Shown here in pieces: positions 7,286 to 9,014 of a stretch of 37,403 nt of DNA. How positions within the stretch are numbered: position 1 is the first letter of the stretch; each line of letters opens with the position of its first letter. The position numbers were made by a program, and so were the translations under genes. Source of the DNA: Pseudacidovorax intermedius (GTDB lineage Bacteria > Pseudomonadota > Gammaproteobacteria > Burkholderiales > Burkholderiaceae_C); assembly GCF_001476815.1 (NCBI RefSeq), contig NZ_LDSL01000029.1, positions 1-37,403 on the forward strand. The letters run 5' to 3'. The notes under the pieces were generated by a model that saw nothing but the letters and a program-made list of their open reading frames with translations, had not been told where the DNA came from and did no database searches.

Positions 7286-7702
7286 TCAGAAGGGCTTGAC
7301 CACGGCCAGCACCACGATGGCCACGAGCAGCAGCACCGGCGCCTCGTTGAACCAGCGGTACCAGCGGTGGCCGAGGCGGTTGGTGTCGGTCTCGAAGCGC
7401 CGCAGCAGGCGGGCGCACAGGTGGTGGTAGCCGATCACGACCAGCACCAGCGCCAGCTTGGCATGGAGCCAGCCGCCTGTGATGCCGTAGCCCAGCCACA
7501 GCCACGCCCCGAAGCCCAGGGCCGGCACCGCCAGCAGGGTGGTGAAGCGCAGCAGCTTGCGCGCCATCAGCAGCAGCCGCTGGCGCTCGGCCACCGACGA
7601 GGCCGGCACCATCGCCAAGTTCACGAAGATGCGCGGCAGGTAGAACAGGCCGGCGAACCAGCTGGCCACGAAGACGATGTGAAAGGACTTCACCCAGAGC
7701 AT
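7286..7702 (-). CDS. hemJ: Protoporphyrinogen IX oxidase, HemJ type
   Basis: The 138-residue membrane protein starts MLWVKSFHIVFVASWFAGLF and continues YLPRIFVN, the signature of the HemJ/CopD-like family. It has about four membrane helices and ends WYRWFNEAPVLLLVAIVVLAVVKPF. HemJ oxidises protoporphyrinogen IX to protoporphyrin IX at the membrane, the penultimate step of heme synthesis in bacteria lacking HemG and HemY. His8 in the first helix is the conserved histidine of the family. The gene is divergent from hemB, an earlier enzyme of the same pathway, which supports the call. A TACACT box lies six bases before the ATG, so a leaderless transcript is possible. Confidence 0.88.
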   Translation of the reverse strand: MLWVKSFHIVFVASWFAGLFYLPRIFVNLAMVPASSVAERQRLLLMARKLLRFTTLLAVPALGFGAWLWLGYGITGGWLHAKLALVLVVIGYHHLCARLLRRFETDTNRLGHRWYRWFNEAPVLLLVAIVVLAVVKPF

Positions 7703-7743
7703 CGGCGCAGTGTAGGCAATGGGTCGCTGCGGCCGGCGCGGGC

Positions 7744-7775
7744 AAAAAAAAGCCCGGCGCCCAGGGCGCCGGGCT
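7744..7775 (-). terminator. Rho-independent terminator upstream of hemJ
   Basis: AGCCCGGCGCCC (7751-7762) is a perfect inverted repeat of GGGCGCCGGGCT (7764-7775). On the minus strand it is followed by eight T. On the plus strand no T-tract follows, so it acts leftward only. No protein gene on the minus strand ends at it: hemB to the right is on the plus strand. It therefore terminates an RNA that begins inside the hemJ-hemB intergenic region. Confidence 0.85.
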
Positions 7776-7848
7776 GGGAAGCCCTTTTGCTGTCACACAT
7801 CAAGGCACCCGCTCAGGGAGGAAAAGCGGGGAGCGGCAAGCCGCTCAA
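7744..7848 (-). ncRNA. Candidate small RNA or hemJ leader attenuator with CCUCCC loop
   Basis: Read on the minus strand this gene-free stretch has the architecture of an independent small RNA. A candidate promoter (TTGATG, 17 bases, TAGATT) predicts a start near 7848. Hairpin 1 (7846-7831) is a perfect GAGCGG-CUUG-CCGCUC. Hairpin 2 (7830-7808) is CCCGCU / AGCGGG around an 11-base loop UUUCCUCCCUG, complementary to a Shine-Dalgarno sequence. About 30 unstructured bases follow. Then comes an 11-12 pair GC hairpin (7775-7751) and eight U (7751-7744). C-rich anti-SD loops are known from several proteobacterial sRNAs. Alternatively this is the hemJ 5' leader with a conditional terminator, since hemJ starts 42 bases further on. 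Confidence 0.6.
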
Positions 7849-7853
7849 CCAGG

Positions 7854-7882
7854 AATCTAACAATATCCCGGGGCCTCATCAA
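7854..7882 (-). promoter_or_regulatory. Candidate promoter of the intergenic RNA
   Basis: On the minus strand TTGATG (7882-7877) and TAGATT (7859-7854) are spaced 17 bases apart; each matches four of six consensus bases. The box lies in the most AT-rich stretch of the neighbourhood (about 7860-7930), which also holds the palindrome TTGATCAA at 7886-7893 and probably the hemB promoter on the other strand. The rest of the 313-base gap shows nothing further that I can name. Confidence 0.45.
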
Positions 7883-7889
7883 CATTTGA

Positions 7890-9014
<1,125 letters not shown>

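Follow-up and report, generated by a model that had tools for sequence, protein, structure and literature searches.

A strong leftward terminator lies between a hemJ-like gene and hemB in the window (by which we mean the whole 37,403-nucleotide stretch of Pseudacidovorax intermedius DNA that was analysed, contig 212 of a 5.5 Mb genome), and the question is whether it ends an RNA of its own or belongs to one of these two genes. According to the original prediction, the locus encodes an unannotated small RNA (sRNA) that is transcribed independently, measures about 105 nt and carries an anti-Shine-Dalgarno loop, and the terminator is an orphan. The elements on which that prediction was built, namely the promoter boxes, two hairpins and the terminator, are all found on the minus strand at 7882-7744:

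7877-7882, minus strand: -35-like box TTGATG, read from the sequence; the TTG...N17 arrangement is shared by many loci of the window's family
7854-7859, minus strand: -10-like box TAGATT, read from the sequence; many loci of the window's family have TANATT in a similar position
7744-7847, minus strand: predicted 104-nt transcript of the anti-hemB family of small RNAs (RF02837 match, fold and a published 105-nt homologue)
7831-7846, minus strand: hairpin 1, GAGCGG-CUUG-CCGCUC, outside the Rfam model (an abutting hairpin is present in 33/34 loci of the window's family, and its pairs covary)
7808-7830, minus strand: hairpin 2, CCCGCUU-UUCCUCCCU-GAGCGGG, with the UUCCUCCCU loop as the presumed Shine-Dalgarno-pairing seed (CCUCCC in 164/167 loci; the stem covaries)
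7781-7806, minus strand: hairpin 3, interrupted, with a GAUGUGUGACAGCA stretch that is common in the window's family (fold and alignment of 31 loci)
7744-7775, minus strand: intrinsic terminator, with its hairpin at 7775-7751 and a run of T reaching to 7744 (sequence and fold)
7709-7714, minus strand: -10-like box TACACT, 6 nt before the hemJ ATG (sequence; a similar box in 29/33 loci of the family)
7286-7702, minus strand: hemJ-like gene (UPF0093/CopD), the downstream neighbour (Pfam PF03653, E 3e-41)
8016-9014, plus strand: hemB (delta-aminolevulinic acid dehydratase), the divergent neighbour (Pfam PF00490, E 1.4e-136)

The spacer between TTGATG (7882-7877) and TAGATT (7859-7854) is 17 nt, and the ends of the predicted RNA are placed from the -10 box (5′) and from the T run (3′). 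The window promoter is missing from the list returned by a generic promoter scan because it has 8 of 12 matches against a threshold of 9. TTGATCAAATGTTGATG, a minus-strand stretch at 7894-7877, extends over the -35 box; it has a similar counterpart in the nearest relatives and is perhaps a regulator site. The repeat arms of the terminator are perfect over 12 nt, and the fold gives 11 pairs and a 3-nt loop, with eight U after them. The terminator itself is thus as described, but the word orphan fits less well, given that hemJ, on the same strand and with its ATG at 7702, sits just downstream.

The identity of the RNA is given by Rfam. Positions 7832-7744 (minus strand) match RF02837, anti-hemB, over the full length of the model (1-81) with 65.6 bits (cut-off 49.5, E 1.2e-14); nowhere else in the source genome assembly does a match exceed that cut-off, and RF02837 is the sole Rfam family over its cut-off in the window. 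It is therefore well supported by the match that the window holds an sRNA gene of an already catalogued family, and "unannotated" was wrong as far as the family is concerned. As candidates for the identity, the Betaproteobacteria toxic sRNA family RF02278 (21.3 bits, cut-off 50), suhB/mmgR (RF00519; 23.7 bits, cut-off 41), RF02869, Trp_leader and the remaining scanned Rfam families all stayed below their cut-offs. The fold of 7847-7744 has a free energy of -55.2 kcal/mol (z -3.93), which none of 200 shuffles equalled; together with the family match and the recurrence of promoter-like boxes within the window's family, this places the elements beyond chance.

Published work describes counterparts. 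The anti-hemB homologue of B. cenocepacia, ncS04, is 105 nt long, its 3′ end has been mapped by RACE and dRNA-Seq, and it is named in a Northern figure legend (PMC5688073). Co-purification of ncS04 with Hfq is reported in PMC4603805, where its neighbours are given by locus tag, and anti-hemB of B. pseudomallei is listed as trans-acting (PMC3521395). The passages of these three papers that deal with the RNA give no function for it.

Conservation in related genomes, which the original prediction expected, is extensive: RF02837 is over its cut-off in 49 of 60 relatives and in 133 of 200 genomes of the order, and in none of 14 well-known control genomes, three of which contain weak matches. The hemB of one genus mate is 94% identical to that of the window. 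For comparison between loci, we assembled 167 of them (53 from the survey of relatives, 27 from the survey of the order and 87 from further retrievals), 34 from the window's family, f1, which we infer to be the Comamonadaceae, and 133 from 40 other families. Three loci under the RF02837 cut-off (L058, L059 and L060) are part of this set, two second tandem copies over the cut-off (in genomes G068 and G113) were not given rows of their own, other matches under the cut-off were left out, and, the loci being related by descent, the counts below are not independent. In the two genomes with tandem copies (L092 and L096), the copies are about 178 nt apart, and another copy lies beside hemB.

The most constant feature is the loop of hairpin 2, with CCUCCC present in 164 of the 167 RF02837 matches, while its stem varies with compensation between loci (for example, CCTGC/GCAGG in six loci of the window's family). 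The invariant hairpin 2 stem in our alignment reflects the choice of sequences, which were 31 of the 167 loci, picked by hand (L043 was picked at first and then dropped). A hairpin that directly abuts the CCUCCC hairpin and scores at least 10 is found in 33 of 34 loci of f1, against a mean of 4.5 in letter-shuffled sequences, and in 102 of 133 loci outside it, against 15.4. The pairs of this hairpin 1 change on both sides; pair 3, for instance, is G-C in 14 loci of f1, A-U in 13, C-G in 4, U-A in 1 and G-U or U-G in 2. These pair counts lean towards pairing because the script takes the best hairpin of each locus, and the control is shuffles given the same freedom. RNAalifold on the MAFFT alignment of the 31 loci, in which the loop lengths of hairpin 1 differ, did not recover it. 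The covariation suggests a new 5′ element that the Rfam family model omits. Towards the 3′ end, a second CU-rich element, UCCCC, is shared by 107 of the 133 loci outside f1; none of the 34 f1 loci has it, and many aligned f1 rows have a longer middle loop with GAUGUGUGACAGCA. The family match, the conservation, the promoter-like boxes, the covarying hairpin and the published 105-nt homologue give good support to the proposal that the locus is an independent transcription unit for an sRNA of about 105 nt, and that this sRNA has an anti-Shine-Dalgarno loop.

Two readings would make the RNA a cis element of one of its neighbours. As a regulatory leader, it would attenuate hemJ: read-through into the gene would be controlled at the terminator, which lies about 42 nt ahead of the ATG. 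The two are on the same strand, and hemJ lies downstream, at 25-170 nt, in 33 of the 34 loci of f1, but the RNA is conserved in other families and hemJ was found in none of the 133 loci there (tblastn at E 1e-4, with the hemJ product of the window as query, over stretches mostly of about 3 kb). Furthermore, hemJ appears to have a start signal of its own: a -10-like box 5-9 nt before its ATG is present in 29 of the 33 loci of f1, with 0.18 expected (the pattern was written after the sequences had been seen), which points to hemJ having its own, leaderless mRNA in much of the family. On this synteny and this box, we consider a hemJ leader very unlikely.

The name of the family suggests the other reading, in which the RNA would act in cis as an antisense of the 5′ region of hemB. 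In 129 of 167 loci, a divergent hemB is no more than 300 nt away, and in the window the hemB ATG is 184 nt from the upstream end of the RF02837 match, the location to be expected from the name. However, the genes are divergent, such that an overlap in the window would need a hemB transcript starting at least 169 nt before the ATG, and the RNA is kept in 34 of the 167 loci in which hemB is absent from the fetched stretch (two of these stretches extend less than 70 nt upstream). On this geometry, antisense control of hemB is unlikely, and we give this reading an even smaller chance than the hemJ leader. The tie to heme that the position between two heme genes had suggested holds for the frequent adjacency of hemB; with hemB missing from the 34 stretches and hemJ confined to f1, a functional tie was not borne out. 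A stand-alone RNA acting in trans remains the reading that we prefer.

What, then, drives its transcription? Outside f1, upstream sequences point to the envelope-stress sigma factor. A pattern of GGAACTT-N14..18-TCTNA, with at most one mismatch and AAC fixed, matched 90 of the 133 loci in 34 of the 40 families (20 dinucleotide shuffles gave a mean of 0.6 and a maximum of 2), with a spacer of 16 or 17 in 84 of these 90, against 1 of 34 loci in f1 (shuffle mean 0.1). A relaxed rule, drawn up after the misses of the first had been seen and run with 50 shuffles, matched 98 of 133 loci outside f1 (mean 1.0, maximum 5), with at least one locus in 35 of the 40 families, and none of the 34 loci in f1, including the window copy (shuffles 0.18). 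Families f18, f39 and f43 fail both rules; the first also misses f7, f8 and f32, and the relaxed one misses f3 and f28. In f28, two of four loci read GGAACTT-N15-TCAAA. The motif agrees with the Salmonella sigma-E boxes at rybB and micA, GGAACTTTT and GTCAAA, as quoted in PMC1804206, and GGAACTT is given as the -35 box of E. coli RpoE in the relevant part of PMC8103513. Among the loci without hemB, 24 of 33 have a sigma-E-type promoter at no more than two mismatches, so the promoter goes with the RNA and is not tied to hemB.

Inside f1, the promoter-like signal is of the sigma-70 kind and modest: at least 8 of 12 positions match in 28 of 34 loci (shuffles 4.4) and at least 9 in 13 loci (shuffles 0.8), and none reaches 10 of 12. 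Outside f1, 24 of 133 loci have at least 8 of 12 (shuffles 21.6). Two loci of family f5, L129 and L112, have an upstream TTGAACTT and TATC.TA that match each of the two sigma-factor patterns in part, as could be the case in an evolutionary intermediate.

The sigma factor and its gene differ along the same line. In one search batch of 30 genomes, one was without an RpoE match at 1e-60; across the sample, RpoE scores 249-255 bits in five f1 genomes (L187-L191) versus 283-333 in 39 genomes outside f1. Boxes of the [GT]GAAC[TC] type lie upstream of rpoE in 29 of these 39 genomes (1.2 expected from shuffles) and in none of the five from f1; a stricter rpoE-promoter pattern matched just 1 of 10 outside genomes. 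From these motifs, the anti-hemB RNA is probably transcribed by RpoE in many other families of the order, and in f1 (the Comamonadaceae) a housekeeping-type promoter seems to have taken the place of that control. In the published stress panel of B. cenocepacia, none of the conditions in Table 2 changes ncS04 significantly (PMC5688073), which counts against simple sigma-E induction; according to the same part of that paper, brief SDS or other stress mostly failed to induce sRNAs. The word RpoE does not occur in either of the two B. cenocepacia papers (PMC5688073 and PMC4603805), and searches of open-licence papers for sigma-E together with Burkholderia or betaproteobacterial sRNAs, and for GGAACTT with MicA and RybB, gave no title on sigma-E control of anti-hemB. 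The tie to stress, also part of the original prediction, is thus supported by the sigma-E-type promoter in other families, although not by the window copy.

The CCUCCC loop complements Shine-Dalgarno sequences, and pairing in trans at ribosome-binding sites is likely. We searched for the exact loop complement together with an ATG in 10 outside genomes and eight genomes of the window's genus. The outside genomes yielded 40 matches, against 8 for the reversed pattern; the 30 matches with loci, judged by eye on the opening residues of each frame, included no gene that recurred between genomes, and with this exact pattern the same holds for the mRNAs of outer-membrane proteins. The genus genomes yielded three distinct genes, none of them in the window's own genome. 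One short sequence repeats within one of the genomes searched for targets (G046).

A lead came from rpoE itself. Outside f1, the 7-mer found most often in the 45 nt ahead of rpoE is UCAGGGA, the complement of UCCCUGA in the loop. It is present in 12 of 39 genomes, and the ten genomes in which it was first spotted by eye are among the 39; CAGGGA is present in 15 of 39, with T preceding it in 12 of the 15. The 7-mer is found before none of five rpoE genes in f1, at 1 of 100 hemB starts and at 8 of 881 other long frames. The rpoE starts of L204, L209, L216, L218 and L220 are mis-set, and these rows are kept in the counts. Because the complement rarely extends past 7-8 bases, we treat this as a lead only, and feedback on rpoE through loop pairing is offered as a hypothesis drawn from the motif.

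These searches also bear on a third reading, in which the RNA would act on a protein, for example by titrating Hfq or another RNA-binding protein, instead of pairing with mRNAs. The homologue co-purifies with Hfq and the exact searches gave no recurring target, as such a role would allow, but base pairing would predict an anti-Shine-Dalgarno loop that is conserved, as this one is, and the signal in the rpoE leader also speaks for pairing. We regard a protein-acting RNA as rather improbable.

Our main reading, to which we assign a probability of roughly 0.7, is that the locus encodes a stand-alone, trans-acting anti-hemB sRNA with its own sigma-70-like promoter and a pairing CCUCCC loop, probably driven by RpoE in many other families and seemingly switched to another promoter in the Comamonadaceae. 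It draws on family membership, structure, conservation and promoter motifs observed here, and on the transcription, length and Hfq association that papers report for homologues. In this organism, transcription would run leftwards from the promoter at 7882-7854, start near 7847 and stop at the RNA's own terminator near 7744. The RNA would display the CCUCCC loop on a rigid hairpin, and the loop would most likely pair, probably with Hfq, with the Shine-Dalgarno regions of mRNAs and block their translation. For many other families of the order, RpoE is the probable sigma factor of this RNA, a control that the Comamonadaceae seemingly replaced with a housekeeping-type promoter.

A broader picture, which we put forward tentatively and hold to be somewhat less probable than its opposite, is that anti-hemB serves the betaproteobacterial sigma-E envelope-stress response as its RNA arm, much as MicA and RybB do in enterobacteria, with feedback through UCCCUGA-UCAGGGA pairing at the rpoE start. 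The Comamonadaceae, with a diverged RpoE and an rpoE gene that lacks such a promoter, would then have adopted the housekeeping-type promoter and lost the second CU-rich loop. The RNA family itself was already known; the additions made here are the evidence for the promoter and for its loss in the window's family, along with the suggested 5′ hairpin. The promoter evidence offers a testable regulator across a bacterial order and a candidate feedback target, and the window's family provides a natural example of a conserved small RNA whose sigma factor may have been exchanged as that factor itself diverged.

Among known systems, suhB/mmgR (RF00519) resembles the window RNA in its terminator and in a CCUCCC stretch of its consensus, but at 23.7 bits the window RNA is well short of that family's cut-off of 41. 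The double-hairpin RNAs of RF02278 (ncS03, ncS05, ncS27 and ncS62), for which occlusion of ribosome-binding sites is proposed in the part of PMC5688073 devoted to them, share CU-rich loops and short hairpins; the window RNA scores 21.3 bits against the RF02278 cut-off of 50, and the source genome has a separate copy of that family at C107:4342-4404 (L088; 62 bits, over the cut-off), as well as a second match under it at C58:8665-8723 (L089; 38.7 bits). The sigma-E-dependent MicA and RybB of enterobacteria are alike in the GGAACTT-type promoter found outside f1 and in the Hfq association reported for ncS04, a likeness drawn here from promoter and Hfq; the window copy, without a sigma-E-type promoter, differs in this. 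The closest relative is RF02837 itself (Burkholderia RNA 7; ncS04), with which the window RNA shares sequence and structure across the whole model, the CCUCCC loop, the terminator and divergent hemB. Unlike RF02837 copies elsewhere, those of f1 lack the 3′ UCCCC and, by the relaxed rule, the sigma-E-type promoter, their middle loop is longer, with GAUGUGUGACAGCA in many of the aligned loci, and hemJ lies downstream.
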